NCBI GenBank assembly: GCA_964059195.1
Contig: CAXKWD010000001.1
Location: 218,434,484-218,498,483 of the forward strand
Direction: 5' to 3'
Source: Ectobius pallidus
Lineage: Eukaryota > Arthropoda > Insecta > Blattodea > Ectobiidae
Length of the DNA: 64,000 nucleotides
Shown here: positions 3,346 through 63,535 of the stretch, one piece after another
Layout of the letters: each line of letters opens with the position of its first letter
How positions within the stretch are numbered: the first letter of the stretch is position 1
Made by a program: the position numbers and the translations under genes
The notes under the pieces: model-generated
What the model saw: the letters and a program-made list of their open reading frames with translations, nothing else
What the model was told of the DNA's origin: nothing
The model's database searches: none

Positions 3346-4254
3346 AAGTGCCAGTATGGTACTTTATGAGATTGTGTGGGGGACGAAAAAATGTCTATCC
3401 GTCTGTCTGTCTGTCCGTCCGTCTGTCCGTGCGTCTGTACGCACCATAACTCAAGTACGCTTTTTCGGATTTTCATGAAACTTGGTATAAACATTCATAA
3501 TGTCGATGGGAAGAACCCTATTGATATTGAACCAAATCGGTTCACCGGTACCGGAGTAATGCCCAATTTAGTGCCTATTTTAATATTAGTGCCCATTTCA
3601 TAGAAAGGCGCCATCACTCAAATACGCTGTAACGGATTTTCATTAAACTTGGTATACCCATTTATGACGTCCATGAAAAGTGCCCTATTGAATTTGAACC
3701 TAATCTGTTGACCGGTACCGGAGTAAAACCCAATTTAGTGTATATTTTAAAGACGCGGTAACTCAAATACGCTTCACCGGATTTTTATGAAACTTGGTAT
3801 ACACATTTACAATGTCCATGGGAAGACGTCTATTCATAATGGATAAAATCGGTTGATCTGTTTCGGAGTAATGCTCAATTTAGTGCCTATTTTATGGCAA
3901 TATACGTATTAGAAAGAATTTATAAAAAAATGAAAATCAGTTATCTTGACAACATAGCCTATTGTTTTACTGTGATCTTATAAGGCCTTGGAAATTAAAA
4001 TACAGGTAGCTATGACAAAAAACACTATTGTTTTACATGCGCTTATCCAACTAGACCGTTAAAATGACCCAGGTGGCCGAGATGGTAGACCTTTCTTCTT
4101 CCGTAAGCCCTGCTTAATGAATAAATCTGGAGCTTAACTTGGAAATCAATTTAAAAAAAAAACATATTCTGCATATCATAATTGCAGTCATAACTGATTA
4201 AACAAAAACATACTGGCACTTTTTTACATCAGTTTACCTGATTTTTATTTATAA
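3346..4254 (+). mobile_element. Family A element (A2), expanded copy
   Basis: Starts TTATTAAGTGCCAGTATGG and runs to the family tail TTTACCTGATTTTTATTT. It is longer than other A copies because a section of about 150 bp occurs three times in tandem (3430-3905). Near 4073-4097 it carries a GGTGGCCGAGATGGTAGAC stretch absent from other copies, which resembles a tRNA-like SINE head. It sits inside Helitron f1 and abuts Helitron b. Confidence 0.75.
3430..3905 (+). repeat. Three tandem copies of a ~150-bp family A segment
   Basis: Each unit contains an ACTCAAATACGCT block, then AAACTTGGTATA, then GTCCATG or GTCGATG, then CGGAGTAA and CAATTTAGTG. Units run about 3430-3605, 3606-3755 and 3756-3905. 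Other A copies have one unit. The units have diverged from each other, so the expansion is not recent. Confidence 0.75.
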
Positions 4255-6020: not shown

Positions 6021-6241
6021 AGGGGGGGGGGGAAGGCGGACCTACTAAAATATCCAATTTGCCAATATGAGCCACTAGGCATGCCTAGAACCCGCTAGGC
6101 ACTTAATTACTTAATGAAACTTAATAATTTAATAAAATATCTAAGTTGCCGATATGAGCCACTGCGCTTGCCCAGTGGGTTCTAGGCATGCGTAGTGGCT
6201 CATATCGGCAACTTAGATATTTTAATAGGTCCGCTTTTTTT
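6021..6241. mobile_element. Short foldback element (Y), GGCGGACC family
   Basis: The left end is a G run followed by GGCGGACCTACTAAAATATC. The right end is the inverse, ending TAGGTCCGCTTTTTTT. A block containing GATATGAGCCACT occurs three times, twice forward and once inverted, so the element forms a long hairpin. The same termini and the ATATCGGCAACTTAGATATTTTA block occur at 45851-46114. Non-coding. Confidence 0.7.
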
Positions 6242-6536: not shown

Positions 6537-7072
6537 AGTTAAATGCCAGAATGGTACTTTATGAGATTGTGTGGGGGACGGGAAAATCTCTGTCTGTCTG
6601 TCCATTGTGTCTGTACGCGCGATAACTCAAATACGCTTTATAGGATTTTCATGAAACTTGGTGCACGCATTTATGACGTCCATGGGAAGAAGCCTATTGA
6701 TATTGGACCAAATCGGTTGAACTGTACCGGAGTAAAGCACAATTTAGTGCCTATTTTATGGTGATGTATTAGAAAGAATTTATGCAAGTCATTTCTCATT
6801 GCAATATATTGTTTTACACTGTTCAGATACGGTTTTGGAAGTTGCAATACAGTTAGCTTTGACAAATAACACCACCCACATGTTCCTTCACATATGCTTA
6901 TCAAACTTCAGAGCTTTGTTCTTCCGTAAACTCTGCTTAAAGAATCGATCTGGATCTTAACTCGGAAATCAATTAAAAAATAACTTATTTTCTGCATGTA
7001 TATAATTGCAATGATCACTTATTAAACAAAAGCATTCTAGCACTTTGTTACATCAGTTTACCTGATTTTATT
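6537..7072 (+). mobile_element. Family A element, single copy (A3)
   Basis: Begins AAATGCCAGAATGGTACTTT and ends CATTCTAGCACTTTG followed by the family tail. It is about 535 bp and is the cleanest single-unit copy, useful as the family reference. Confidence 0.8.
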
Positions 7073-7788
7073 TACCATGGCATACATTGAATATAATAAT
7101 ATTTGCTGGTGAAATTTTACCACATCAAACTTATTTATGTCTTTATTTTATTTTTTATTCCATAATATTGACTTAACGCTTTCGTTCCCAGCACCTAAGT
7201 TGTAATGCGATTGCTTACGCCTTTGCGTAAGTAATTAATGAATCGATCGCCACCATGATTAAAATAACTACTTTTTTCTTTCGGTATTCCGAGCAACTTT
7301 ACCACCATTTCGAACATATAAGTAATATTTTTATTATTCCCTATTGTAGCAAAAATCATATGCAATACACATGCGTTAACTGCATTGGAGAATCGGAAAT
7401 TAAAAAAAAAATCATTTTCGGCTCGTCTTTCAAACTTTTCCTAGATTCTCCGATGATAAAACTTGTAATCTTGTATCGCAATCTCTTATTTCCTTTGTTT
7501 CATAAAACTGAATACTTTTTCGACCGGTGTCTGTGCTCATTGCAATAAATTTAGCATCACTGCTGGCGAATCTGTGTAGTTAACAGAATGGTGGACAGAA
7601 GTTAGCTATATTTATTGGTCTTAAAGTTGCCAGACGTGTCTGAGGCTGTGCTGTAACCCTGTGGGCAATAGTTTACGATCACTCCAACTTACTCAGACAA
7701 CTAAGCTATTTGTCCTTGGCTTTATGGCACATCTGCCTCTATCTTCTTTGTTTTCGTAGCTTTTAATTTTAAATGCTGACATTATTAA
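7073..7788. other. Unassigned sequence
   Basis: Contains a 97-codon plus-strand ORF (7255-7548). Its composition is low-complexity and rich in Phe, Ile, Lys and Tyr, with no family motif. I do not consider it a gene. Confidence 0.4.
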
Positions 7789-8320
7789 GTGCCAGAATGG
7801 TACTTTATGAAATTGTGTGGGGGACGAGAAAATGTATGTCTGTCCGCATGTCTGTACGCGCGATAACTCAAATACGCTTTATCGGATTTTCATGAAACTT
7901 GGTATACACATTTATACCGTCTATGAGAAGAAGCCTATTGATTTTGGACCAAATATATTGACCACTACCGGGGTAATGTTCAATTTAGTGCCTATGTTAT
8001 GCTAGTATATATTAGAAAGAATTTATCAAATTAAATCAGTTCTCATGACAATATATTGTTTTAGAGTGTTCATATACGGCTGTGGAAGTTGCAATACAGT
8101 TAGCTTTGACAAATAACACTAACCACATATTCCTTCGCATATACTTATCAAAATAGAACTTTGTTCTTCCGTAAGCCGTGCTTAATGAATCGATTTAGAG
8201 CTTAACTCGGAAATCGATTTAAAAAAAAAAAAAACTTATTTCTGAATTTCATAATTGCAATTATCACTGATTAAACAAAAGCATTTTGGCACTTTGTTAC
8301 AGTTTACCTGATTTTATTAC
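7789..8320 (+). mobile_element. Family A element (A4)
   Basis: Begins ATTATTAAGTGCCAGAATGG and ends GCATTTTGGCACTTTGTTAC plus the tail. Single-unit copy, about 530 bp, with an extended A run at 8221-8234. Confidence 0.8.
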
Positions 8321-9282: not shown

Positions 9283-9663
9283 CTCGGTGCGGGCAGAGGA
9301 AGTAATAATTGAATATCTTGTCGTTAAGAGCATTCTAACAAAATAATGGATTCATTCCGAGTATAACAAAACTATTCCGTTGCTAAGAAAAGTTGTAAAT
9401 AGAGAACTACGTAAGAATACTTGCGTTTCGAGAGGAGGGCAATGACTGAGTGCTATTCGTGTGCGACATTCAGAATGATTCAATTGCTAAGTCAACAACC
9501 TGGGTAACGAACATTTTTTACAAGGAAATATTTGCAGTTAATATTCACGAAGGTACTCACAGAACACATGAAAATACTTGGATCAAAAACCTTGAATTTA
9601 ATGATATAATTCATTCAGATATAGCTCTACCAGAAAGTGCAATTAGCTTATATAGAACTTATA
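9283..9663. other. Unassigned sequence
   Basis: Nothing recognised. The ORF at 9450-9743 runs from unique DNA into the mariner-derived element and has no family motif. Confidence 0.4.
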
Positions 9664-10350
9664 CGAGGGCCGTCCACAAAGTAAGTTTCCCTGGGGGACG
9701 TTTACAGAAACAAAACACAATTTCGTGGAAATACTTATTGTAACGGATACAGCAAGTGTTCAGCTATTTTTCAACATATTCGCCACAGGAATTGAAACAT
9801 TTGTCATACCGTGGAACCAATTCTTGAACACTTGTGTCATAGAAGTCTGCCGCCTGGGATTTGAACCATTGTGCGATAACGTTCCGTTTCTCTGTCAATC
9901 TCTACCATTCTCTGTCATTCACTGTCATTTCTTGAGGGGTAGGAAAAGATGAAAATCTCTGGGTACGCGGTCCGAGCTGTAGGGTGGAGGTTTAAACACC
10001 TCCCTGCAAGCCTCCTGCAAAAGTTCGGCTAGGAGATGTTTCAACTTCCACCCTACAGCCCGGACCTCGCTCCCAGTGATTTCCATCTTTTCCTACACCT
10101 CAATAAATGACAGAATGATAGAGAACCCGAGATGATTGTCACACAGGGGTTCATATTTCAGGCGGCAGACTTCTACGACACAATTGTTCTATAGTTGGGC
10201 CCACGGTATGATAGATGTCTGAATTCCGGTGGCGAATATGTTGAAAAATAGCAGAACACTTGCTGTATCCGTTGCAATAAATATTTCCACGAAATCGTGT
10301 GTTGTTTCTGTAAACGGCCCCAGGGAAACTTATTTTGTGGCCGCGCCTCG
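9664..10350. mobile_element. Palindromic mariner derivative (P1)
   Basis: The element is flanked by TA on both sides (9662-9663, 10351-10352). Its two halves are inverted copies of the 3' part of a mariner transposon. The outer ends read CGAGGGCCGTCCACAAAGTA and, on the other side, its inverse. The right half, forward, reads SPDLAPSDFHLFLHL; the left half encodes the same region on the minus strand. The loop at about 10000-10030 is short. Both halves carry stops, so no protein is made. Mobilisation by a mariner transposase recognising the ends is inferred. Confidence 0.9.
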
Positions 10351-10352
10351 TA

Positions 10353-10699
10353 TTATCATATTTTAAAAATAAATTAATAACGCAAGAGCTTTCATCCTGT
10401 GGATAATAAAAGGCTGTGAAGCATGAGCTAAGCTTCTGTGGTATTTAAGAGGACTATTTAGCGAATATATTTAAAAATAAGTGATTAAATGAGGACAAAA
10501 ATTGTAATGTAATAATTATAGCAAGAATATCAAAATATGTTGTTATTTGTTAATACTAAGATTATGTAAAACATAAACATGATATACTTATATAAAGCTA
10601 TAATGGTCACCTCTGTCCCGATTTGTCGCAAAAACTACTGAACTGATAGACCTGAAATTCTACATGAACATAGTTGTTATACCCGGAAAGGTTATAGGA
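10353..10699. other. Unassigned sequence
   Basis: AT-rich. Near 10605-10690 there is a GTCCCGATTTGTCGC...CTACATGAACATAG segment of unknown origin. Confidence 0.4.
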
Positions 10700-10843
10700 C
10701 TTGTTCACTAACCACCGTGTGTAGGCTAAGATGGATAGGTTGATTCAGACTGAAAAACTCAGTGCCATAGCAGGTATTTGAACCGGGATCTTCGGCTCTC
10801 TATGCCGCTGCTCTACCATTGAGCTACCATGGCAACGTGCCGG
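10700..10843 (-). mobile_element. tRNA-like SINE, second family, copy 1
   Basis: On the minus strand the head reads GCCATGGTAGCTCAATGGTA, then GAGCAGCGGC, with B box GGTTCAAATACC. The acceptor and D arms pair, but the T stem does not, so it is not a working tRNA gene. The 3' body (GCCTACACACGG) is shared with 34055-34185. Confidence 0.7.
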
Positions 10844-11929
10844 TAAAACATAATGCTCCAACTAGCTCACATATCCCGGTATACCACCAGGCGTTCTCAT
10901 TATGAGATCCCAACCCAACTTACTAACTTCGTTGAGTATTTTATCTTATTTTAATTAAAAACAGTTTCAGCCATTTTTAGTTCGTAACGTCTTATTTAAC
11001 CATTTTTAGGTATTATAAAATTGGATTATGACCATGAAAAGGATAATTAGGTTAAAATATAAGTTAGTTAGCAAGAATCAAAATAGATAAATACCTAAGA
11101 ATACGGGCCCTAATAAAGATTAATTCTTGTTGTCTCCGGGTATTGATTCAGATTGATAGGGAACACTTTCTGGAAGCTTTTTCCCCTCCATATTCTACTT
11201 TTAGTAGCGATTTTAGGTATTACTAAAATATTGCAATGTTGAACTTTATATTTTCTCCACCACAGCATGATTAATGAATCTGACAAAATGTATTTACCTT
11301 TTCGCTGCTGCTGGCGTATTAATTCGTCACCACAATTAATTGCATAAAGGCAGAATTATTAGATTAATAGGGTAATGATTTGTGCTAAAATGTGATAATT
11401 TTATATTTGTGTATTATGGTTTTAATTGTTGGAAATCAGTTACTTCATTATAATTTTCCTAATTTATTTTAAACTTTTAAATCACTGATGAATTCGCTTT
11501 ATGATTGCTTATAAGAATGCGTATATTCAGCATTCAGCACTACATGCTAGAAGTCTTTTATTACCTGTTTAAGTCGACCTCAGAGAACAAAGAAACGAAT
11601 TTGAATAACTTAACCAGAAAAGGAAACTGTTAATTGCTAGAATAAACAGAAGTACAGATTCTTAAGCTCCTTGGTTAGTGATGAACTTTCACATATGCCC
11701 AAGTTTGGAATTGGATACTTTGCAAACAAATAGATTTCCTAATAATTGCAAACTCCATTCTGTTTTGTATGGTGTCGAAAATTATGTGATGTTACCTTGA
11801 AGTGTCTGATCGTTGCAGAACTAACAACTTTTCAGCTATTAGCGTTTTAAAAAAATGTTATATCTAGAAAGGCATACATGATCCACCCATGGAAATTTTT
11901 CTTATGATTAGACAGTAATTTTAAGTGTC

Positions 11930-11933
<4 letters not shown>
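10844..11933. repeat. Mostly unassigned; hAT-like fragment near 10950-11112
   Basis: At 11088-11112 the sequence AAATACCTAAGAATACGGGC resembles the inner right end of elements E and G. TTTTTAGGTATTATAAAATT precedes it at about 11004. The left end was not found, so this is a decayed fragment. The remainder is unassigned. Confidence 0.35.

Positions 11934-11978
<45 letters not shown>
11934..11978. repeat. (GT)n(AT)n microsatellite
   Basis: About 14 GT units are followed directly by about 9 AT units. The histidine/tyrosine-rich minus-strand ORF across it is a repeat artefact. Confidence 0.95.
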
Positions 11979-11984
11979 CTCATA

Positions 11985-12444
11985 AGCAGAGCCAGAAAAC
12001 CGGATAAACCTAGGTCTACCCGAGTAATGTGCTCTTGACCCGATCAGTTTGGATACAGCAAGAATCATAAACCAAATTTCCTTCACTTCTGGTTTTATCC
12101 GGGTAAAGAGCGACCTACCGTCATGCCTCTGGGTAAATAAAGCCGGCTTCTTATTTTGTTAGAGGTCTGGGCATGCGCAGTGTGGTTTGGTTAGATTAGG
12201 TTATTTCAAAGTGACATTCAATCGCATCCTGTTCAAACAAGTAACATTACTAAATAGCATTTGAAGTGGTTATAATTCCATTAATAGGAATACAGTATTA
12301 TTTGTTTGAAATTCATCTTGGGGAAACCTAAGATTTATCCGGGTTAAGCTAGAAACGTATATTTTATTAAATTTTGCCCAGAACTTTTGGATAATGTGCA
12401 TCTTATCCGGGTAAAGCTAGTTTTACCCAATTCCCAGCTCTACT
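11985..12444. mobile_element. TIR element with GGGTAAA motifs (AD)
   Basis: The ends AGCAGAGCCAG and TTCCCAGCTCTACT are roughly inverted. The motif TTATCCGGGTAAA or close variants appears at least five times, clustered toward both ends. This resembles the subterminal transposase-binding repeats of hAT elements. No target duplication was confirmed and it is non-coding. Confidence 0.5.
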
Positions 12445-12470
12445 TGTAACATATACTAATATATGTTGTG

Positions 12471-12990
12471 GTAATGCAGAAATAAGTTCTTTTTGTAATC
12501 GATTTCCGTGTTAAGCTCCAGATCGATTCATTAAGCAGGGCTTAGAAGAAAAAAGGTCTAAAGTCTCGCCGTTCTAAGAAGGAAACCTGAAGTAAACAAA
12601 ATCCAGTACATCTGTCTCACTCTAGCACATTACTCGTATGACTTGATCAGTGAGACAGACATACTGGTTTTTGTTTACTTCAGGTTTCCTTCATAGCTCG
12701 TCTCGGGTTATAGTTTGATAAGCATATGTGAAGGAATATGTCGGTGGTGTTATTTGTGAAAGCTAACTGTATTGCAACTTCCAAAGTCGTATATGAACAC
12801 TGAAAAAAAACAATATGTTGTCATGAGAACTGATTTGCATTCGAGAAATTCTTTCTAATATATTACCATAAAATAGGCACTAAATATGAATGTGTTTACC
12901 AAGTTTCTTGAAAATCCGATAAAGCGTGTTGAGTTATCGCGCGGACGGACGGACATTTTCCCTAACACAGTCTCATAAAGTAGCATTCTG
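12471..12990 (-). mobile_element. Family A element (A5) with an inserted hairpin
   Basis: Minus-strand copy whose left terminus lies near 12990 (inverse of GCCAGAATG). It is truncated at 12471 beside element AD. A foldback of about 145 bp interrupts it at 12563-12708. Confidence 0.75.
12578..12692. mobile_element. Foldback insertion inside A5
   Basis: Arms 12578-12621 and 12649-12692 are inverted copies matching at 41 of 44 positions, starting GAAGGAAACCTGAAGTAAAC, around a 27-bp loop. All other A copies lack it, so it is an insertion. Its class is unknown. Confidence 0.8.
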
Positions 12991-13039
12991 GCTTTAATAA
13001 TGTGATGATCACAGGTATTAAGATAAATTATAAAAAGAA

Positions 13040-13725
13040 TCTACTCTTATACAATTCAACGGCCCTAAATAGCGTGCTCACTCGCTCGCCCGCTTCGTGA
13101 AACATCGGGTATACTCGGCGATGTTCGTCTCTCGCAGTCTAAACTTTCACGAAGAGTACAAAATTAGGAAAACCGTTTCTTTATTATATAAGGCCTAAGT
13201 GAAATGAACACAATGAACAAATATTCTAATTTTATTTTTACTTACAATTTTCATAGCTCTGAACCACAAACATTTTAAATAAACTGACAGTGTAAATTTC
13301 TTCCTGGAGTCAATTAATAATGGCGGGCGAAGCTGCGGGCAGTATCGCGGACAGTAAAAAATCCAAACAGAATAACTCCTTCCCTTGAAAAATTATATAA
13401 TTTCTGAAAATTACACTGAATTGATCAAATAAAATTCACATCATATTCATGTCAATAAACAGTTGAGAAACAATACGTATTATGTGTTCACAGGTTCCTT
13501 TGGAAATGCATAATCGATTCTGATATCGTTTTCCCAGGGGGCGCTTTCTAATCGTGGAATGTACTCTAAAGCCGGAATTTTAGCTGTTTCATTAATTATT
13601 AATGGTTTAGTTTATGAATGATTCGCGTGCAAGTGTTAATAAATATAATGCTTTAATAATTATTATACTCTTAATTTTTAATTTTTCAATTAATTATCTT
13701 GGGCGAAGCCGTGGGCACCTACTAG
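13040..13725 (+). mobile_element. Helitron d1
   Basis: The 5' end is A|TCTACTCTTATACAATTC. The 3' end is GGGCGAAGCCGTGGGCACCT followed by ACTAG|T. It is 686 bp with no ORF for Rep or helicase. Its copy of the TACGTATTAT/GTTCACAG site is uninterrupted, whereas the two related copies carry a small insertion there. Confidence 0.85.
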
Positions 13726-14625
13726 TCTGATACATATCATTCTAGGAAGAAAACACTCATTAGTTGTAAGGAATGTCATCTTCTGGTCACTCATCATTAC
13801 ATAATGTGTGGCAATGACAATAACATTAACGTCGCCTCTGTTTTGCTTAATCATGCTCACTCTCTCCTGCTCTGGAATAAGAATGCTTCAGTTCTAGGGA
13901 AATCTCTCAAGGTTCTTCTTTGTTTCAAGTCCATCTCAGGAAAATTCCTGTTTCATAACAAAAAAAAAATAACTTCTACATTAGCTGTCTACTTACTTCG
14001 CCATACTCATCTACTGGAAAAAATTGTTTGTTTTAGGTGCCAGGCTGTAATTCTAACCTCGTAATTCAGAGCGTCGGAAACCATACCGAATGGTTTTGGG
14101 GTTATTTAAAACTAATTTTACTTCAAAAATTAACAAAAAGTTGATTAAAAAAGCCAAAAAATGTGGGATAATTTTGAAATACAGGCCTACAAATAAAAGG
14201 GGCAGGGTATGGAATGTATGTTTGTAGTAGATGTAGGGAGAAGACACCTACAACCATGCATACATGATGGCATCGTGCCACTCTAGTTTATTGCAGTAGT
14301 GGAAGCGTGAAAGCACGCATAACCCAACCTATAAAACCCTCGTAGTTCGGTACGGAAGATCCTTATTCCCAAAGCTTCCAATCTCCATGGAGACACATAA
14401 TTCGATGCCATTTTTATATGCACAAAGGGATTAAGTTGTGAGTCACCGCCGTGCAGATTGGATGTGACACAGCTTCTTACGTCAGAATAGCTTTTTATTT
14501 GTTAGAGCAAGAATGCCAGGAGCACATAGGCTTAAGTGTAAGGATTTTAATTTCTTTATTCTGTTCCAAGATAACGAGCAAATTTTAGATTTTCTTTTTT
14601 GACGCGAGGTCTACTGTAAATGTGT
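13726..14625. other. Unassigned sequence
   Basis: No family or motif recognised. The ORFs at 13804-14064 and 14053-14247 lack recognisable domains. Confidence 0.4.
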
Positions 14626-15212
14626 ATAGTATGCATGGGCGCCCATACCCGGGGGCAAGGGGTGCCTAGCTCTCAGGGAAAGGAAAAAAATATTAATAAT
14701 AATTATAGTCGGGTGTTTTTCTTTTAGAACAACTATTTAAAAGTCATTAAGGACATAAAAAGTTTGCAGACGTTTTACCAAATCGACAACATGGAAGCAG
14801 AATTCACAGTGGAGTAGGAAAAGGGGGGAGTCCAGACTCTTAAAAATCAAGAGCTAAAATTCTATTTTTTTATTTAAAAAAAAATCATTTAAACAAGTTT
14901 TGTTGGTGTGTCAAATATGATATAGGCTAGCAGTTATTTTGTTTCCATAACATAATGAGTAGGCTATTATTTCCATTGTTCCATGACGTGTTAAAATTTT
15001 CTTATGAATAGTAATAAGTATTATAACTTAGGTAACGATTGCTTGTTTACGTTGCTAAAATAGCGTAAAACTGATTTTCATTAGTTCAATATTTAAACAT
15101 TTTCCGGGGGTGCACCCCCGACTACCCTTTCTTGGGGGTATTCCATCACTTTAGACCCTCCCTGAAATTATTTTCAGGCTACGTCAGTTTTGCACTTATT
15201 ATATTATTAATA

Positions 15213-15994
15213 TCTACTCTTATACAATTCAACGGCCCTAAATAGCGTGCTTGCTCGCTCGCCCGCTTCGTGAGACATCGGGTATACTCGGCGATGTTCG
15301 TCTCTCGCAGTCTAAACTTTCATGACGACTACAAAATTAGGAAGGAAACCCGTTTCTTTATTATATAAGGCCTAAGTGAAATGAACACAATGAACAAATA
15401 TTCTAATTTTATTTTTACTTACAATTTTCATAGCTCTGAGCCACAAACATTTTTAATAATCTACCAGTGTTAATTTCTTTAAAATCCTGGAGTCAATTAA
15501 TAATGGCGGGCGAAGCCGGGGGCACCAGCTGTAAAATATTGATGGTTTAACTCTTGAAATATCGCTGATAATAAAACTTCCAAACAAACAATTCCTTACC
15601 TTGAAAAATTATGTAATTCCTGAAAATTACACTGAATTTATCAAATAAAATTCACATCACATTCATCTGTCAACAAACAGTTGAGAAACGATACGTATTA
15701 TCCACCGCCGTCTCGAGAATTACGCAGGAGAATTATACAGTTTAGAAGGCAGTGGTTCACAGTTATCTTTGGAACTGCATAATCGAATCTGAGATCGATT
15801 TCCCAGGTGGCGATTTCTAATCGTGGAATGTACTCTAAAGCCGGAATTTTAACTGTTTCATTAATTATTAATGGTTTAGTTTAAGAATGATTCGCGTGCA
15901 AGTGTTAATAAATATAATGCTTTAATAATTATTATACTATTAATTTTTAATTTTTCAATTAATTATCGTGGGCGAAGCCGCGGGCACCTCCTAG
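15213..15994 (+). mobile_element. Helitron d2, nested in K1
   Basis: The 5' end is A|TCTACTCTTATACAATTC, with the 3' hairpin region GGGCGAAGCCGCGGGCACCT and CCTAG|T. It is a close copy of d1. It lies inside K1: K2, which lacks it, reads continuously across the same point. It carries a 52-bp insertion at 15703-15754. Confidence 0.9.
15703..15754 (+). mobile_element. 52-bp CACCGCC miniature element
   Basis: Starts CACCGCCGTCTCGAG and ends AGAAGGCAGTG, imperfect inverted ends. Helitron d1 lacks it at the equivalent position, and Helitron d3 has it (32284-32340). Other copies at 41339-41831 and 41619-41664 have 8-bp duplications. Confidence 0.8.
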
Positions 15995-16096
15995 TAATAT
16001 TACAAAGTGGCCCAAGAAGTTAAAGCGCAACAAATAAATAAATTAAAAAATTGCCCCCCCCCCTAGAAAAATCATATGGGCGCCATTGATAATATG

Positions 16097-16706
16097 GGAT
16101 ATTTAAATCGTGATGAACACTTGTACATTGGCACGTATAAGACAGTCGTGTAGAGACCACGCCCTGGTCCAGTTAAAAACTGATTTAGCTGCAAACAAAA
16201 TGTAAAGATGTTATGTTATTCTGTTTTGCATTTATTCATGAGCTTCTATTCTGATACCGAATTTCAAGTGCATGAAGATTAAGCCGGGAGACAAAGCCAA
16301 CAGTAATTACAGGGTTCGAATGTCATTTGTTCCGGGTTATGGGAGATGTTTATCTCAGGAGGCTATGATTATAGGTTCCATTGCATATGTACGTATAATG
16401 CTCACAGCTGTTGTGCACTGGGCTCATTTGCAATGATGCTTAGATATAGGCTAAAATTGTATCTTTAACATGAACCTGCCTTGACATTTCCGGATACCTT
16501 CTGCCTGATTCAATCTATGGCTTCTTGATTAATGAAAGGGGTCGTACACTCGAAAGATGTCAAAAAAAAAAATTTTTATCTTTCCAAAATGTAGCATATA
16601 TACTATTTCGTAGATAATACTGAATTTTAAGGTAAATATTCCTATTTGGTCTAGAGCTGGGACGAATAACTGGACAACAGTTAATTAATTTTTACTTTTT
16701 CGCATA
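16097..16706. other. Unassigned sequence
   Basis: Nothing recognised on either strand. Confidence 0.4.
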
Positions 16707-16708
16707 TA

Positions 16709-16972
16709 CGAGGGTAGGTCGAGAAGTAATGCACATTTTTTTTTTACAAAAAGTTTAATAGGTACAATTATAAACAAATGCACAGATGAAGGAACATCTT
16801 TTGTCTATTTTTCTATAGGTTTATAGTTGCCAAGTTTCTCAACACATTTCTTCCATCGTGATACCAGTTTCAAAATACCCTGTTCATAGAAGTCCGTTCG
16901 GTTGGAGTATAGCCATCTGCGGACTGCTGTTTTCACTTCTGCAAAGCGTTTACCGGCCAGGAATTTCTTCAT
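16709..16972 (-). pseudogene. Mariner transposase C-terminus (second lineage)
   Basis: The minus-strand reading frame 16972-16805 encodes 55 residues and a stop, including KRFAEVKTAVRRWLY, then DFYEQGILKLVSRWKKC and VEKLGNYKP, the typical end of a mariner transposase. The terminal repeat beyond the stop reads CGAGGGTAGGTCGAGAAGTA inverted, and starts at 16709 next to TA. Upstream coding sequence is lost where it meets an A fragment at 16974. The surviving frame has no stop, so this is younger than the relic at 8518. Confidence 0.85.
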
Positions 16973-16973
16973 T

Positions 16974-17345
16974 TAGTTTGATAAGAATGTGTGAATGAAT
17001 AGGGGGGATAACAACAGAACGAAATACAACAAATGCCTCACATCTGAAGCAAGGCGTGATATAATAAATTTACAAAGATCTGACTGTTTTGTATCAAGGT
17101 CCTCAGTGATTAGCAACGCGGCTTTGTAGTATAGTCGTGATTTGCCATTTAATAGTCGTTACTCCGGTACCGGTCAACCGATATGGTCCAAAATCAACAG
17201 GCTTCTTCCAATGTTCGTTATAAATATGTATACCAAATTTCATAATAACCTGATTGAGCGTGTTCGAGTTATCGCGAGTACAGACGCAAGGACATGCAGA
17301 CATTTCGCGTCCACCATACAAAATACCATACTAACATTTAATAAC
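16974..17345 (-). mobile_element. Family A fragment (A6)
   Basis: Pieces of the A consensus on the minus strand: TAGTTTGATAAGAATGTGTG at the left, then CCGGTACCGGTCAACCG through to the start of the element near 17340. The middle is replaced or strongly decayed. Confidence 0.65.
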
Positions 17346-18071
17346 TTCAACATTCATAATAATGAAATTAATGAAAAGGGAAATAGTAAGTTTAATATAG
17401 GTTACTATATTTACTAGACCAAATCTATTAATCATAAAAATGAAAAGTATACAGATATTCAGATAAGAAAGAAAGTGTTGCCAGTGAAAGTTTTATTTTT
17501 CAACTTAAAATTAGTTGCAGCGAAGGTTAACCACTGGAATAACGGCGGGGTTTTCCTTCTTTACGTTAGTTCCCATGTCTGAGAGGACTTACAAAAAATA
17601 CTGTTAGGTCTGTGGGTGTCTGTCTCATTACTGTGAACTTTGCATGATCATAATTACAAAAGATTTATTATTTTCAAACGTCACGGTTGACATATATGTA
17701 GCACTTTACACTGAACGTGTCTGACACATACAATCTGATGTTTTCGTTATCTAGAGATTTCCATACTTATGTTTCCTAAGACGCGGTGCTAAGAAAGTAC
17801 TGGAGAATTGAGTGAATAACAAAAAACTTGCGTGTTCCAAGGAAGAATAAAAGGGATGGCCGAAATGTTGAAGAGTGATTTTGTAATCTATTTGTCCTTC
17901 AAAATAGGAACTATACACACTTAAATAAATTTTAACCAAAATTAAAGTTAAAAATTAATTTTAATATGTCAACTTGTTTTTGAGATATTAATTATTTAAT
18001 TTCTTTTTTAAAATCAAAATTAAAATCTTCTCCGAGAGGTATTACAATTTTATCTTAATTTTAAAGATTTT
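17346..18071. other. Unassigned AT-rich sequence
   Basis: No recognised family or motif. Confidence 0.4.
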
Positions 18072-18695
18072 TAGGTAGATTTCGAAGAAAAATCTACCTA
18101 TTGGGATTGCTACCATGTCATGACTTTTGAAAAATTATTTCATATCTTGACGTTTCATGCCTTCTTAAGGACGAAACCACCGCCCGTTCAAAAGCTTATT
18201 TATATTACCCGCTAGCAGCCGTAATTTTTTAGATATTTGAACCAAATTTTATTATGTTATTTCTAGGCCCAATAGTACGGACAAGTTCGTTAATGAGAAA
18301 AATTGGCCCAACGGGGGTCGGGGAGGGGGTTGAAATTTTGAAAAAAATTATATATCGGCCCCTATGAAGTATAGAGGGAAACTTTGTTTGGATAAATTAG
18401 AGAACTCCCTATGGAGTTCACAGTGATATCAACGATTCGGGGGTTTTGGGGGTACGAGTGGGGGTGGGGGATGGAAATTCGAAATGTTTGAAACCATGTC
18501 TTATGGGGTATCGTTGAAAAGTTCTTGATGAGTACTCTAAAAATCAATAACTAGTTTCTCGATAGCTCTCATATAAGGCGAGATGTGAATGTTTTAAAAA
18601 CAATAACACTTAAAAATATACCTCTGCCTGTAGGCCTGTCGAAAACCAAAAGCACTTCGAAATCTACCTCAGGCTGTAGGCCTGCCTAAAGGGAT
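18072..18695 (-). mobile_element. S-family element (S1)
   Basis: A terminal hairpin at 18072-18101 pairs TAGGTAGATTT with AAATCTACCTA. The opposite end contains GAAATCTACCTC and TGTAGGCCTGCCTAAAGGGA. The family includes a C/G-rich run (CCCCCACTCGTACCCCC-like), CTCCATAGGGAGT and ATTACGGCCGCTA blocks. Copies at 25178 and 29748 are in the opposite orientation. The inverted AGGTAGATTTCGAAG ends suggest a DNA transposon, but I do not recognise the class. Non-coding. Confidence 0.7.
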
Positions 18696-19242
18696 TTTTT
18701 AATTTACTGATGGGATTTTTATATTGTTTATACTTTAAAAAAAAAGAAAAAATACCCAGATAAATTAAAAGTAAAAATAACTATTATATGATTATACAAA
18801 ATATTGTTTTAAAAGAAAATAAGAATTTAGTAATTTTAACACACATTGTACATTTAATTTACATTGCGAAAAAAATTCATATCTGTTTTTGTGTAGGTGA
18901 AATAGCTTTTGAATTTAGCAAAATAACAAGCAAATTGGGACCGAGAAAACGCATGATTAAACTTTGCATGCACTGAAGGGCACTGAGGTTTGAAAATGAG
19001 GGCAAGCAGCGCCTGTTCCATGCTTCCAAACGGCATAAAATTTTTCACGGTTATACTTTAGGGCAATGCTTTATTTTTTAGTGGAAAATCCAAAAATAGG
19101 TTTTTTGGACAAAATAGTTAACCAGCGTTTCTGTCAACATTTAATGAAATAGACGACCAAAGAAGGAAAGAAAGAACTTAAAAAGACAGAAGTAGATATT
19201 AAGAAAATAATTAAATATAGAGGAAGACTGAAAGTAAAATAA
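18696..19242. other. Unassigned AT-rich sequence
   Basis: Two overlapping ORFs on opposite strands (18788-19048) have no recognisable motif. Confidence 0.4.
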
Positions 19243-20083
19243 TCTCTATATATATAAAAGGCTTTGTCCTGACTGATTGACTGAATGACAGGAATCAACG
19301 TACAGCCTAAACTATAACAGGTAGAGACTTGGAATTTTGACAGTACCTTCGCTTCATAATGTAGGTGCTCACTAAGAAAGGATTTTGAAAAATTCTGATT
19401 CTAAATGCCAAAAATTAAATGTTTTTGAAAATACTTAAGCCCTTTTTGCATAGAATTATCGAAACAAATTCCCAGAATATATTGTTGCCAAATGGTATCA
19501 GGTGGGCTTGGAAAAAACAATTGAAATGCACTTTTGACAAATAAGAGAAGTTATCAAAATAATTCATGTTATAAATAAATATTACAGGATGAAATCCACT
19601 AAAATAATGGAATCACATAACTTTCTCTACCCTGGACATAGAGAAAACAAAACGAGGTATGGTAATGTGTATATTATTATATTATATCGCAGGTTTTTGG
19701 AGAGAAAAGTATGAAAGTGATAATGCTTTCTGTTTAATTTCATCTCCAAAACGGCTTTATGGTAACATAAGAGTGGGAAATTTCCCGCCTCGATATTACA
19801 ATTTTATGTTACAGGAATTTCTGTTTCTTCTTATTTAAACCTCTACCAGGCTTGCTGTGCACTGTACAAGCGATGGGATGCAAAATTCTAGATCCTCTAT
19901 GAGCCATAAAAAACTATATCAAGCGTTTTCTGAGGGAATAGTTTGAGTGTAATAAGTCGTTCTTCCTATTTCAAATTATAAATGCCTATATAAGGACCTA
20001 GAATTTAAAATTGAAAATCCTTCATAAGCTAATTTCCAATTACAAAATACAAAACCCGGGCGACGCCGGGTCTTTTAAGCTAG
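19243..20083 (+). mobile_element. Helitron a
   Basis: The 5' end is A|TCTCTATATATATAAAAGG. The 3' hairpin CCCGGGCGACGCCGGG is followed by TCTTTTAAGCTAG|T. It is 841 bp, non-autonomous, and shares its 3' end with Helitrons b and c in inverse orientation, including the GCCATAAAAA...CAAGCG block. Confidence 0.9.
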
Positions 20084-20494
20084 TAAACTATAAAGAATTA
20101 ATTAAAATTAAAAAAAAATCAAAATAACGAAAGAAATAAAAATAAAATACAAACGAAAGACATTCATTCCATTTGCTTATTGTGGTGCTTTACTTTGTCA
20201 CAAACTAAATAAACAGGCTAAATCAACGTGGTTATTTTATTTTCTCGGGCAACCACAAAAATGTCTACTAACACATAAATTGAGGCACCGAAGTACGTTC
20301 ATAAAAACAAATTCTCAGTCACTGCCATCTAGATTGCTGATGTTCCTATGTCCTGCCGAAAACTCATGGTGAAACATGTGAGTCACAGGGAAAAGTTAAC
20401 ATTTTTAGCCCGAAGTTAACAAACCCAGGGTTAGTATATAGTTAACCCGAGGTCGGTAGCAGGAAATCTAAATAATTACCAAACCTACATTTCT
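20084..20494. other. Unassigned sequence
   Basis: No family recognised. Confidence 0.4.
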
Positions 20495-20502
20495 GTTGTG
20501 AA

Positions 20503-20995
20503 CATAGGCATACCGAGGGGGGGGGGTTTGGGGGTTTGAATCCCCCCATTGATTAAAAAAAGGAAAATTGTATAATTTTTTAAGTCTGCCCATAAATTAC
20601 TTAATACAAGTATAAAGCGTGAGAAGCTTAAAACTCGTTTTAAAATTTTCCAGGGGAGACCCCCGGAAGCTTAAAATTCTTTATTTTGCATCTGAATTTT
20701 TAAAATTTTCCGGGGAAAGTCCCCCGGAAGCTTAAAACTCGTTATTTTGCGTCTTAATTTTTAAAATTTTCCGGGGAAGACCTCCGGAAGCTTAAAACTC
20801 GTTATTTTGCGTCTTAATTTTTAAAATTTTCCGGGGGGGGGGGCCCGGAAGCTTAAAACTCGTTATTTTGCATCTTAAATTTAAAATTTTCCGGGGGAGG
20901 ACCCCCGAACCCCCCTCTCCCTGGGAGATATTCCATACCCCCCAGACCCCGCGGATGTTATTACCCCCCATATGGTTGGCCTGGTTACGCCTATG
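20503..20995. mobile_element. hAT-type element M1 with internal tandem array
   Basis: The ends are CATAGGCATACC and GGTTACGCCTATG, with a perfect 8-bp target duplication GTTGTGAA (20495-20502, 20996-21003). Within the element a 60-bp unit is repeated about five times. GC-rich G and C runs border the array. It is 493 bp and non-coding; ORFs extending across it are incidental. M2 (61354-61674) is a two-unit version. Confidence 0.9.
20634..20890. repeat. 60-bp tandem repeat inside M1
   Basis: Units begin with GGAAGCTTAAAACTCG at about 20634, 20665, 20726, 20786 and 20847, each followed by TTTTAAAATTTTCC and a GGGG...CCCC block that can pair as a short stem. The first unit is short (about 31 bp) and lacks the central part. 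It is not a CRISPR: there are no variable spacers. Confidence 0.9.
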
Positions 20996-21003
20996 GTTGT
21001 GAA

Positions 21004-21409
21004 TACTAGTAAGCTTATACAAGGAGGAGGTTGTAACAATGGTATGTTGGCAAGCATGATTGGTGCTAGAGAATGGATGTAAATAAAGTACGGCGTGGGA
21101 AGTTTCCAGAAGCTTGGCATGCAGATGTGTCAAATGTCGCATTCTCCTCACGTGGAGATAGCATCGCATCGGACGCATGCATCTTATACGTGTGCCAGAT
21201 TCCGATCAGGTAAAACTGCTATTATACCTTACTGAATACTTGTGTTCAATTGGACACTCACTGCAGAAAAATCCTGTAAATTCTCGTGGTGTCATATCTG
21301 ACGCTATAGCAACAATAAGCAATGCATACTCTAATTTCTTTCGCTTAAGCATGGCCCGTAATACATTTTACTTAGATAGAGGCCATGATAAAAATCACGG
21401 CCTTCTTTA
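21004..21409. other. Unassigned sequence
   Basis: No family recognised. Confidence 0.4.
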
Positions 21410-21411
21410 TA

Positions 21412-22079
21412 TGAGGCGCGTCCAGAAAGTAAGTTTTCCTGGGACCGTTTACAGAAAATAAAAACACAATTTCATGAAAATATTTATTGCAACAGATACA
21501 GCAAGTGTTCAGCAATTTTTCAACATATTCGCCACCGGAATTCAGATATTTGCCATACCGTGTGACCAACTTTTTAATGCTTGTGTTGTAGAAGTCTGCC
21601 GCCTGGGATTTGAACCACTGTGGGACAACCTTCTCTGTCTCTTTCGCTCTCTGTCATTTCTTGAGGTGTAGGAAAAGATGCAAGTCGCTGGGAACGAGAT
21701 TCGGGCTGTAGAGTGGATTTTTAAACACCTCCCAGCAAGTCTCCTGCAGAAGTTCGGCTGGGAGGTGTTTAAACATCCACTCTAAAGCCCGGACCTCGCT
21801 CCCAGTGATTTCCATCTTTTCCTACACCTCACGAAATGACAAAGAATGACAGAGAGGCGAAGGCGGTTGTCACACAGTGGTTCAAATCCAAAGTGGCTCA
21901 CTTCTACGAGACAGTCATTCAAAAGTTGGTAACGGGATGACAAATGTTTCAATTCCGGTGGCGAATTTGTTGAAAAATAGCTGAACACTGTCTGTGTCTG
22001 TTGCATTAAATATTTCCTTGAAATTGTGTTTTGTTTCTGTAAAGAGCCCCAGGGGAACTTACTTTGTGGACGGCCCTCG
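21412..22079. mobile_element. Palindromic mariner derivative (P2)
   Basis: Same architecture and same central junction as P1. TA flanks lie at 21410-21411 and 22080-22081. The right half, forward from about 21740, reads LLQKFGWEVFKHPLYSPDLA, then PSDFHLFLHL, and after a frame change VVTQWFKSKVAHFYE. The left half, on the minus strand, reads VTRYGKYLNSGGEYVEK. Both are from the transposase C-terminal third. Each arm is broken, and no N-terminal DNA-binding region is present. Confidence 0.9.
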
Positions 22080-22081
22080 TA

Positions 22082-29164: not shown

Positions 29165-29712
29165 GGCTAAGCTCAGGTCATGAAGCTCGGCGTTACGCAG
29201 TTTTCTCTAGTCCCCATTTTCATCTTTCTTGGGTCCAAATATTTTCCTAAGCCCCCTGTTTTCGAACATTCTCAGATTATTATCTTCCCGAAAAGTAAGC
29301 GATCATATCTCACATCCATATAATACAACCGACAGGGAGGAGCGTTTTTTCAAAAGCCGATATCTACATGGATATCTCAGTGCAAGAGGTGACTAAGTGC
29401 CATCAAGAAAAGTGCTAATATTTGTGTGTATTGACCAGCAAAGATCGTATTCTATCTAAGCCAAACATGACAAACAGCCTTGCTGTATCAGTTACAGACA
29501 CAGTAATGGCTGCTAGTCCTGTTTGGTGTAGATAAAATACAATTTTTGCGGTCAATACACACAAATATTAGCACTTTTCTTGATGGCACTTAGTCACCTC
29601 TTGCAACGAGATATCCATGTACATATCGGCTTTTGAAAAAACGCTCTTATAAATGTTTACTTTTAGATTTCTGGACAGAAGACGAGAAGATAAAAATTTC
29701 TGAACTGCATAA
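29165..29712 (-). pseudogene. Non-LTR retrotransposon RT C-terminal fragment (L1), interrupted
   Basis: On the minus strand, 29339-29165 reads as the region LPVVLYGCE-like, NLRMFENRGLRKIFGP and HDL, the domain after the polymerase core in a LINE reverse transcriptase. The upstream part resumes at 29647-29712. A foldback occupies the gap. The copy at 58146-58803 is continuous across this point. Frameshifts are present. Confidence 0.8.
29340..29646. mobile_element. Foldback element inside LINE L1 (R)
   Basis: Inverted arms at 29340-29479 and 29508-29646. The outer ~97 bp are nearly identical, beginning GAGCGTTTTTTCAAAAGCCG; the inner parts are diverged. The loop is about 28 bp. Non-coding, class unknown. 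Confidence 0.85.
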
Positions 29713-38524: not shown

Positions 38525-40204
38525 TTTTTTAGTACACGCTCTCTAAAACAGCTGTTTGTCGGACTGGTAACAAGCTAGCTATAATAGCAACCAAGGTTGC
38601 TAAAATTGCATAAAACTGCATTCATAATGCAGTTTTATCGGTCTAGTACTTTAAAGTCGTAATGACAATCTATTAAAAAAATCCAGATGGCATTGACCAG
38701 TCACACCAACTTAACATGGATTTAAGCATATGAATGCTCATAAAACAACAATTTTATGCCAACATGTTTCTTTATGATAATCAGAAACTTTACCAGGGTT
38801 TTTCACAAAACACGGTAATATACTTCATCATATAACAACAAACATAAGACAGCAACTTTTCACATCTTTGTTCACAAGAGAATCATTGCTTACCATGGAT
38901 GCACCAGCATTTAATTGCAATATATTCATTCTCATAGTCTACCGCTGGCGTGATGTTGCTGGCACCAGCTCCAATTCAACGTTTCTGGCTTGGATTGAAA
39001 TTTCCTCGGGATTATCACTCATATTTCCACAAGATTTTCATAAATACTAGTTCATATGCATTACTGTTTACAAAAAGGATCTATACCGCATTTCGTATTG
39101 GTACGATTCATTGTTGTTCCGCGATTCAGATGGCCTGGAGAATATGACTTTAACAAATGGCTGACTATCTTCCATTATACTTAATTATGTTTCATTGCAT
39201 GTAATTCAGAGAGCTCTTACGCAAAAAAAAATATTGTATGCACCACGTACGCAAAAAAACTTTATCGAACTAATCCAGTATTTCAGCCTCGGCTCACGCC
39301 TCGGCCGCTATACTAGATTCCTCCGCTAATAGCTATTTATGTATCAAGTACGCAAAATAACGCTTTAGCGGACGAATCTAGTATAGCGGCCGAGACTGAA
39401 ATACTAAATGAGTCCGCTAAAGTTTTTGCGTACGTGGTGCATACAATATTTTTTAGTAAAAGTTCTATAAATTATATGAAACAAAACAAAAAATACCGTG
39501 TAATTAATTATAATGAAAGGAAGTCAGTCATTTCTTTAAGTTATATTGTCATGGCCATCTAGATCATAAAACAACAATGACCGTACGTACCAATAACAAA
39601 TGTGATAGTAAAGATGCATAATATATGAGTCCCTTGTTTGTAAACAATATTGCATACCAACTAGTATTTATGAAAAGCTTATGAAAATATAAATGATAAT
39701 ACCGAGGAAATTTCAATCCAAGCCAGAAACATTGATTGGAGCTGCTACCAGCAACTTCACGGCAGAAATAGGCTATGAGAAGGGATATATTACGGCATTT
39801 AAATGCTGTTCGTCCATGGTAAGGAATGTTTTTCAAGTGAACCAAAATGTGAAAAGTTGTTGGCTTATATTTGTTGTCATGTGAAGAAGTGGGCTACCGT
39901 GTTTTGCGAAAAATCCTGGTAAAGTTTCTGATTATCATAAAGAAACGTGTTGGCTTAAGTGTGTTGTTTCATGACCAATTATATGCGTAATTTCATGTTA
40001 AAGTTGGTGTGACTAGTCAATGCCATCTGGGTTTTGTTTATAGATTACCATGACGACTTTAAAGGACAAGGCCGCTAAAATTGCATTTTGAATGCAGTTT
40101 GAATGCACTTTTATGCAATTTTAGCGGACTTGTCCTTTAAAGTGCAGCTTTTCGGCGTGTTACCAGTCCGATAAGCAGCTGTTTTAGAGAGCGTGTACTA
40201 AAAA
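38525..40204. repeat. 1.68-kb near-palindrome (T)
   Basis: The left arm (38525-39327) and right arm (39366-40204) are inverted copies around a 38-bp loop. Matches run the whole length: AGTACACGCTCTCTAAAACA at both outer ends, CAGATGGCATTGACCAGTCA, TTTCTTTATGATAATCAGAA, CTTGGATTGAAATTTCC and TGCACCACGTACGC. The arms have diverged, with small gaps. Each outer third holds shorter inverted words (GCTAAAATTGCAT). ORFs in the two arms are not each other's equivalents and have no motifs. Could be a large foldback transposon or an inverted duplication. Confidence 0.9.
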
Positions 40205-46197: not shown

Positions 46198-46896
46198 ATA
46201 CGTAATAAAATCGGGTGGCAGAATGATTTTGTTTAATCAGTGATAATTGCAATTACGATATGCCAGAAAATAAGTTATTTTTTATAATCGATTTACGAGT
46301 TAATCTCAGGTGTACGGAAGAACAAAGATCTAGTTTGAAAAGAAAATGTGAAGGAATATGTGGGTAGTGTTATTTGTCAAAGCTAACTGTATTGCAAAAT
46401 ATTTATATATGTATGTGTATATATGTGAAATCTGTAAAGCAAATGTCTGATGGAATATTTCCTTGTTTTGCAGGTGAGTGCGGTGAATCCCAGCATTTCT
46501 TGGAGAACTCAACAATCCCAGTACTGTGCATGCGTGAGTAAGAAATCTCGTTCTGAATATTAAATAGCATGATCAACAGCATCCCATACTAAATAGGAAA
46601 GTTTCAAGTTTCCTGGTCTCGAAATAATTATCTCATGGCAAAAAATGAGTTTAAAGCGAAATTAAATTACCGAAGTAAAACTTGGCCACTAATTTGGACG
46701 TTATTCCAGTACCGGTCAACGGATTTGGTTCAATATCAAAATGCTTCTTCCCATGGAGGTTATAATTGCGCATACCAAGTTTCATGAAAACCTGATAAAG
46801 CTCATTGGGGTTATTGCGCATACTGACGGACGGACGGACGGATGGACAGACATTTTTCAGTCTACCATGCAGTCTTAGAAAGTACCATTCTGGCAC
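46198..46896 (-). mobile_element. Family A element with a 260-bp insertion (A10)
   Basis: The far end and middle lie at 46198-46397 and the start at 46660-46896 (ending ACCATTCTGGCACTT). The sequence between (46398-46659) is foreign and unrecognised. The next A copy begins immediately to the right in the same orientation. Confidence 0.75.
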
Positions 46897-63371: not shown

Positions 63372-63535
63372 TTACTAATACGCAGAATGCTTTTGCTTAA
63401 TCAATTATAATTGCAATTATGATATGCAGAAAATAAGTTATTTTTTAATCGATTTCCGAGTTAAGCTCCAGATCGATTCATTAAGCAGGGCTTACGGAAG
63501 AACAAAGGTCTATTTTGATAAGCATATGTGAAGGC
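63372..63535 (-). mobile_element. Family A fragment (A12)
   Basis: Runs from GCAGAATGCTTTTGCTTAAT to GATAAGCATATGTGAAGG of the minus-strand A consensus and is then cut by the next element. Confidence 0.75.

Follow-up and report, generated by a model that had tools for sequence, protein, structure and literature searches.

Two palindromic mariners in Ectobius pallidus are probable copies of an abundant non-autonomous family with a shared central junction

In a 64,000-nucleotide stretch of the Ectobius pallidus genome (Blattodea; Ectobiidae), hereafter the window, we found that two palindromic mariner elements, P1 and P2, are probably both old members of a palindromic mariner family that is non-autonomous. 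The central junction of P1 and P2, a junction type that we call J1, is present at about 5,000 places in the genome. The J1 palindrome was very probably founded a single time, from a mariner that was already defective, and it has since moved as a unit.

Results

P1 and P2 each consist of two inverted mariner 3′ ends

P1 spans positions 9664–10350 of the window (687 bp, plus strand) and P2 spans 21412–22079 (668 bp, plus strand); comparison with their genome relatives places them in what we call the P1 and P2 subfamilies. The initial annotation, made from the window sequence, had located both elements exactly to the base. It had also reported TA on both sides of each, and we found these target-site duplications at 9662–9663 and 10351–10352 for P1 and at 21410–21411 and 22080–22081 for P2 (no strand assigned). 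Beyond the TA, the flanks of P1 and P2 have no relationship to each other. As had likewise been described, each element is made of two inverted mariner 3′ parts, comprising the transposase C-terminus, the 3′ untranslated region (UTR) and the 3′ terminal inverted repeat (TIR).

In P1, the left arm (9664–10007, minus strand) is an inverted mariner 3′ end with a 3′-type TIR at its end. It is followed by the loop AAGCCTCCTGCAAAAGTTCG (10008–10027, plus strand), a single-copy continuation of the right arm that corresponds to the parent codons ASLLQKF, and by the right arm itself (10028–10350, plus strand), which carries the transposase C-terminal remnant, the 3′ UTR and the 3′ TIR; the third D of the DD34D motif lies within SPDLAPSDFHLF. 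In P2, the left arm (21412–21736, minus strand) is an inverted 3′ end whose final CAGC is at 21733–21736, and the right arm (21757–22079, plus strand) starts with GCTG at 21757–21760. The loop of P2 (21737–21756, plus strand) lies between the paired segments 21638–21736 and 21757–21855. The ends of P2 are mixed, with a P1-type 3′ TIR on the right and a P2-type TIR on the left. P1 and P2 do have the same central junction, as first proposed, and their loops are in the same register; the unpaired piece, however, is shorter than had been given, namely the 20 nt AAGTCTCCTGCAGAAGTTCG, because the GC of its final GGC is paired (GCTG with CAGC).

The palindromes run from end to end: identity to the element's own reverse complement is 79.3% for P1 and 81.4% for P2 (gaps included), and P1 and P2 align to each other with 80.8% identity. 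Predicted RNA folds have minimum free energies of –451.8 kcal/mol for P1 and –431.1 kcal/mol for P2, as compared to shuffled means of –184.8 and –181.5, and none of 20 shuffles of either element reached the native value. Neither self-comparison nor a junction search revealed a further copy in the window; the two junction matches were P1 and P2 themselves (expected, 0).

J1 marks an abundant family of non-autonomous elements

When we ran the genome-wide junction search that the initial annotation had proposed (2.12 Gb in 410 contigs; a pattern of 34 sequence places, up to 3 mismatches), we found J1 at 5,022 places (2,466 + 2,556), a count that is conditioned on the junction itself, and a reversed-pattern control gave 0. 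A first look had returned 3,095 candidates with the P1 centre and 3,434 with the P2 centre. We scored 40 copies per query, all of which matched on both strands, for a total of 80 including P1 and P2. Fetched genome loci carry L numbers, where L001 is P1 and L009 is P2 of the window.

Both terminal 12 bp can be read in 35 of the copies, of which 27 are flanked by TA left and right (12 of 17 P1-type and 15 of 18 P2-type). When each end is counted by itself, TA flanks 49 of the 55 left ends that could be read and 46 of 51 on the right, against a background TA frequency of 9.3%, so that P1, P2 and most readable copies have the target-site duplication of a mariner. The 12-bp flanks differ in all 80 copies, with no pair alike. 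Identity to the subfamily consensus is 0.85–0.96 for P1 and 0.85–0.95 for P2, and 67 of the 80 copies are 600–720 bp long. J1 thus has the traits of a miniature inverted-repeat transposable element (MITE), with no transposase gene, high copy number and homogeneous size, and its consensus of approximately 670–690 bp is at the upper edge of the MITE size of a few hundred bp. After the founding, several subfamilies would have spread and then decayed, including at least P1, P2 and an older group.

It is hardly credible that the palindromes are products of misassembly or of a single segmental duplication. Inverted repeats are prone to errors in assemblies, but the arms within P1 and within P2 differ by approximately 20%, and neither the distinct flanks with TA duplications in most readable copies nor the presence of the junction at thousands of places fits such an origin.

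The arms derive from a mariner transposase gene and share a deletion

All four arms of P1 and P2 read ...FGWEVFKHP-YSPDLAPSDFHLFLHLKK... up to the stop after ...GGEYVEK, with stops and frameshifts interrupting, and no open frame runs through them. The translation of the four-arm consensus, in which ties were settled in favour of the P2 right arm, is LLQKFGWEVFKHPLYSPDLAPSDFHLFLHLKK, a stop, QNDREAETVVTQWFKSQAADFYDT...RYDKCFNSGGEYVEK, and a stop. This consensus is similar to the C-terminal part of SETMAR/Hsmar1 and Mos1, with 6 sequences matched at E 2.4e-15 to 1.7e-12, which places the arms among DD34D mariner transposases. A protein search with it returned 733 proteins at E ≤ 0.001. Among the matches listed (the best 120 of the 733), the top identity was 83%, many were named SETMAR, and the closest species-named proteins were from the termites Cryptotermes and Zootermopsis (72–79%). 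A Pfam scan of the 79-residue arm piece gave just two weak matches, under the cut-off. Searches of viral contigs with the arm protein and the TIR, and of prokaryote genome contigs with a termite-type alignment, found no relatives.

Upstream of the arm, the protein relatives read R/W-TASLLQ-F. Because of this, we take the right arm to continue unbroken into the loop (ASLLQKF), which makes the left arm the added copy. All four arms are also short by 22 nt at a place where relatives carry about 10 residues (such as FLSGERQHFE). Because this deletion is common to both arms of both elements, the founder of the palindrome was already defective when it was doubled. The left-side peptide of the frame that crosses the junction was found in no product among 226 proteins compared; the search with this frame matched 277 proteins, of which the best 120 were listed, and the test is weak as such frames are short. 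The sole motif match to the across-junction peptide, P0162, was an ordinary mariner.

Loci L059, L072 and L085 were first read as the parent and then rejected, as they belong to an unrearranged sister lineage. In L085, and less clearly in L072, a distinct 5′ TIR lies approximately 1.03–1.07 kb from the 3′ TIR.

Palindromes with other junctions are present in the genome

The initial annotation had reasoned that different centre junctions in other copies would argue for independent inversions, and elsewhere in the genome such junctions do occur (L112–L114, L115 and L089). A pattern for the sequence upstream of the arm in the parent was found at 89 places (control, 0), with 5 exact matches, 4 of which were fetched as L112–L115. 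We presumed these to be unrearranged parents and rejected this, as they are palindromes too, with inverted 3′ ends and other junctions. In J2 (L112, L113 and L114), the left arm ends near arm position 41 and the loop is 57–58 nt; the right arm of L112 is cut after approximately 60 bp. In J3 (L115), the left arm ends near position 82 and the loop is 150 nt. J4 is represented by L089, a sister-mariner palindrome of 693 bp between TA dinucleotides, with arms of 84.8% identity, an 85-nt loop and yet another junction. The J2 pattern (up to 3 mismatches) had just two genome matches, L112 and L113. The 22 nt absent from J1 arms are present in L112–L115 and L089, and no arm of these loci in which the place is present has the J1 deletion. 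An inverted copy of the locus's own 3′ end was found in none of the 30 protein-matched loci L059–L088; L059, L068, L076 and L086 have other inverted repeats.

Palindrome formation thus looks recurrent in the Ectobius pallidus genome, and the simplest reading is that J1, J2, J3 and J4 were founded independently, although J2 and J3 may have arisen by remodelling of one older palindrome. Despite these palindromes with other junctions, P1 and P2 were not founded separately, as far as can be told.

The J1 structure is consistent with snap-back copying

The undeleted relatives L112, L113 and L115 read GACAGC-AAGTCTCCTGCAGAAGTTC[AG]-GCTGG across the place of the junction, while in L114 the second place reads GCAG. 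The same ACAGCAAGTCTCCTGCAGG is obtained when the Cryptotermes protein P0009 (in a shifted frame) is decoded back to nucleotides. As read from these relatives, the parent would have carried CAGC and GCTG as an inverted repeat of 4 bp with 20 nt in between. In the mechanism that we propose, a defective mariner copy would have undergone snap-back (fold-back) copying, in which a strand read from the 3′ end, with its terminal GCTG paired to the CAGC 20 nt back, produced a further copy of the 3′ end. The resulting element would have two 3′ TIRs and two 3′ ends head to head around a 20-nt loop. The observed J1 structure is consistent with exactly this product of GCTG folding onto CAGC.

Several observations weigh against this account. 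Among the fetched genome loci, none is a direct unrearranged parent of J1. Stems of 4 bp with loops of 3–40 nt occur 54 times in a 349-nt stretch, and because short stems are so common, the microhomology is weak evidence for snap-back. By DNA folding energy, the exact 28-nt junction piece ranks 57th of 322, while windows shifted by 4–8 bases at the junction are the most stable of the 349-nt stretch. Given the 54 stems and the rank of the junction piece, we dropped the argument from hairpin energy for a unique hot spot.

J1 elements moved as whole palindromes and very probably descend from one founding

To follow the arms as separate rows, we built a first tree from 29 of the 80 copies, picked by length and identity, and 5 outgroup rows, excluding the junction and TIRs. 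In this tree, 41 of 60 inner branches are weak; P1-type left arms (support 99), P1-type right arms (93) and P2-type left arms (96) each form a clade, and P2-type right arms group together except for the right arm of P2 in the window, which is placed outside. In a second, more careful tree (8 P1, 8 P2 and 5 older copies, J2, J3 and sister mariners), we found support of 100/100 for P1 left arms, 94/83 for P1 right arms, 100/99 for P2 left arms and 100/98 for P2 right arms. Within each subfamily, arms therefore group by side, left with left and right with right, and the two arms of a subfamily consensus are 92–93% alike. The arms diverged before each subfamily spread, and therefore the whole palindrome transposes, which bears out the proposal that it moved as a unit.

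The accompanying claim that the palindrome formed once is likely to hold for J1, but the identical junction that was offered as its proof is not enough. The junction sits on an inverted repeat and other palindromes have other junctions, so we rejected it as sole proof; in addition, the order of the arms of the two subfamilies is unsettled. One founding is nevertheless the most likely reading because of the same register, the common deletion, the grouping of the sampled arms in one clade and the mixed junction haplotypes. By reading, all 80 fetched copies have the same register, and 78 fit a fixed 38-nt junction template with up to 7 mismatches (the exceptions, L056 and L098, have a short insertion and a short deletion, respectively). 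In the second tree, the 42 J1 arms fall into one clade (100/98; 95/93 in another tree) apart from J2, J3 and the sister mariners. The two arms of J3 are joined to each other (86/80 in the second tree, 55/83 in the other), and the J2 arms have no resolved placement. Among 100 listed exact junction matches, counted by hand, 68 are T,T,A (P1-type), 16 A,C,G and 9 A,T,G (both P2-type), and the remaining 7 are mixed (4 T,T,G, 2 A,C,A and 1 A,T,A); A,T,G is also the state of L112–L115.

Other results weigh against a single founding. The junction agreement of the 80 copies is partly by design, as the queries held the junction. Informative sites in the window copies pair right with right and left with left arms (RR/LL) 2 times, arms within P1 and within P2 (P1/P2) 6 times and arms crosswise 4 times (5, 6 and 4 when junction columns are included), and the subfamily consensus sequences give 1, 5 and 0. 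The left and right P1 arms join in trees (86; 93/95). Trees that hold left arms, right arms or P2 arms together scored slightly better, by 3.2–5.4 log units, than the quick free tree, itself one of those in which the P1 arms join, and approximately unbiased tests reject none of these three clades (p 0.608, 0.603 and 0.651). The joining of the P1 arms could mean that two snap-backs occurred at one spot, or that one arm was converted by the other. Such arm-to-arm conversion would blur an old tree signal.

We consider it unlikely that the P1 and P2 subfamilies were founded separately, each by its own snap-back, at one hairpin-prone spot in defective mariners that were close relatives. The junction does sit on a natural inverted repeat, CAGC AAGTCTCCTG CAG[AG]AGTTC[AG] GCTG, such events probably recur, to judge from the palindromes that have other junctions, and the pairing of the P1 arms and TIR differences that are common to both ends of a subfamily consensus point the same way. 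Against this, both subfamilies have the exact junction and the 22-nt deletion, all sampled J1 arms form one clade and intermediate junction haplotypes are present. Moreover, 4 of the 5 consensus sites in favour of P1/P2 pairing lie within the last 32 bp, and elsewhere the signal is 1 site against 1. Exchange of ends can explain the TIR pattern: of the 22 copies in which both ends could be read, 5 (L001, L002, L009, L040 and L046) had one P1-type and one P2-type end when end type was scored at the first two TIR places, and TIR ends seem to have been exchanged between subfamilies. Five copies assigned to P2 (L016, L027, L034, L108 and L109) form the older group, in which left arms mostly have right-arm states; the two arms of L109 are each other's nearest rows (91/94, second tree).

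Open mariners with nearly identical ends are candidate movers

Two loci, L079 and L084, have uninterrupted 356-residue frames with HDN and SDF at D34D spacing and a TGDETW motif, and L060 has a 357-residue frame. Pfam identifies Transposase_1 and the Mos1 HTH_48 in L079 and L060, and L079 matches a Mos1 chain with E 3e-52. The 5′ TIR of L079 is identical to the P2 TIR at 23 of 24 positions and to the P1 TIR at 21 of 24, while its 3′ TIR matches them at 21 and 20; for L079 and L060 together, 18–23 of the 24 outer bases agree with J1 (20–23 for L079 alone). Judged by these likenesses, open mariners of the L079 type are candidate movers of J1, which they would cut and paste in trans.

Two like ends may also form a better transposase substrate than a normal mariner does. 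In vitro, two right ends were 26-fold above the natural pair in Mos1 and two left ends 2-fold better in Mboumar-9 (PMC4505599). The 3′ end may be the preferred end of the parent mariner; this is an assumption, and it weighs as a limit against the proposed advantage. In a group of near-identical mariners around L060 (such as L060–L069), open frames are mostly 363 residues from stop to stop, and the 5′ and 3′ TIRs (CGAGGCGCG and CGAGGGCCG) differ at the same two places that separate P2 from P1 TIRs.

The hairpin is probably a by-product of the architecture

It is very unlikely that J1 was kept as a source of hairpin RNA (small interfering RNA, siRNA, or microRNA-like loci) acting on mariners. 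Transcripts would form stems of approximately 320 bp, and Mu killer (Muk) in maize is a precedent (PMC1784062). When we compared pair-restoring double changes in copies of 600–720 bp (67 of 80), 31 P2-type copies had 94, as compared to 43.3 with shuffled partners, and 0 of 2,000 shuffles were as high; an excess remains without 7 odd copies and the TIR (35 against 19.0; 24 copies, P 0.0005). In contrast, the 36 P1-type copies had 41 restored pairs against 42.7 expected, and arms of the same element show no greater likeness than arms of different elements (difference 0.0078, 95% –0.0094 to 0.0259). Three copies (L109, L037 and L034) hold 33 of the 94 P2-type changes, a concentration that suggests conversion between arms or the presence of subgroups, and the remaining P2-type excess may come from conversion, subgroups or constraint. 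We therefore regard the hairpin as a likely by-product of the J1 architecture and claim no siRNA function for it. Separately, L109, L034 and L037 are possible cases of recent arm-to-arm conversion.

Other features of the window

Seven full palindromes, P1 and P2 included, are present in the window. The palindrome at 417–1278 (862 bp, 80% arm identity) has many full or partial copies there (3754–4253, 6597–7074, 7839–8318, 12711–12885, 46215–46397, 47020–47467 and 63383–63534), while no other window copies were found of the one at 38526–40204 (1,679 bp, 77%). A palindrome at 61675–62823 (1,149 bp, 78%) adjoins a repeat with a 60-bp period (61438–61555), which is related to the array at 20638–20907 that ends approximately 500 bp left of P2. 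Two short palindromes are at 29340–29646 (307 bp, 89%) and 6033–6237 (205 bp, 79%). A tRNA-Ser gene (anticodon AGA; 10762–10834, minus strand) lies approximately 410 bp to the right of P1.

Discussion

J1 is a new family of an already known type, the palindromic Tc1-Mariner elements. In the beetle Callosobruchus maculatus, large non-autonomous Tc1-Mariner elements, often fully palindromic, make up 5.2% of the genome, and the set comprises 13 consensus sequences of 654–2,199 bp (PMC10849321). Like J1, these elements are non-autonomous, MITE-like, often fully inverted and very abundant (PMC10849321), and J1 belongs with this group by architecture. The consulted part of that study gives no parent, junction, statement on 3′ ends or founding mechanism (PMC10849321). 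Made1/hsa-mir-548, a MITE derived from Hsmar1, is also mariner-derived, palindromic and hairpin-forming if transcribed, but it is 80 bp long (two 37-bp TIRs plus 6 bp), whereas J1 is approximately 670 bp and carries the transposase C-terminus twice (PMC1784062). Mariner MITEs of aphids and Rhodnius are non-autonomous as well; unlike J1, they are described as internal deletions and so keep both kinds of end (PMC5490172; PMC4678618). All three mariner MITE clusters given for Rhodnius start with TACGAGG (TA plus TIR), as J1 does, and short mariner MITEs are described as rare in that paper (PMC4678618). The DD34D mariners Mos1 and Hsmar1 have in common with J1 the C-terminal catalytic part found in its arms and the TA target; J1 differs from them in having no 5′ end, no transposase gene and two 3′ ends.

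Foldback elements have long inverted arms built of internal repeats and a longer target-site duplication. J1 is not of this kind, as its arms are mariner coding sequence and 3′ UTR and its target-site duplication is TA. The foldback-like Galileo has long inverted arms, as J1 does, but it belongs to the P superfamily and makes a 7-bp target duplication, in contrast to the mariner arms and TA target of J1 (PMC4168063). Muk is, like J1, an inverted duplication of a partly deleted transposon; it is a locus that silences MuDR, whereas J1 is a mobile family (PMC1784062). In the titles and abstracts of the open-licence PMC literature searched, we found no 3′–3′ mariner palindromes in cockroaches or termites, and the consulted part of a paper on Blattodea transposons does not mention palindromes (PMC9689775). 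What J1 seems to add to the known cases is a readable parent, a mapped junction, a defective founder and evidence of repeated founding.

The origin of MITE-like families is hard to see once their interiors have no likeness to any parent. The J1 arms still read as transposase. From them one can trace the founding junction, the deleted state of the founder and how the family later spread, and compare J1 with other foundings in this genome. We propose, tentatively, that the 3′–3′ palindrome may be a recurrent route to a successful parasite, with at least 4 junctions founded independently by snap-back, each known case having doubled the 3′ end, and with two like ends serving as the better substrate. 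If this is true, one junction type grew to approximately 5,000 copies from a founder that was already defective. It would be a testable idea that a doubled transposon end, which raises mariner transposition in vitro, lets palindromes outgrow their parents.

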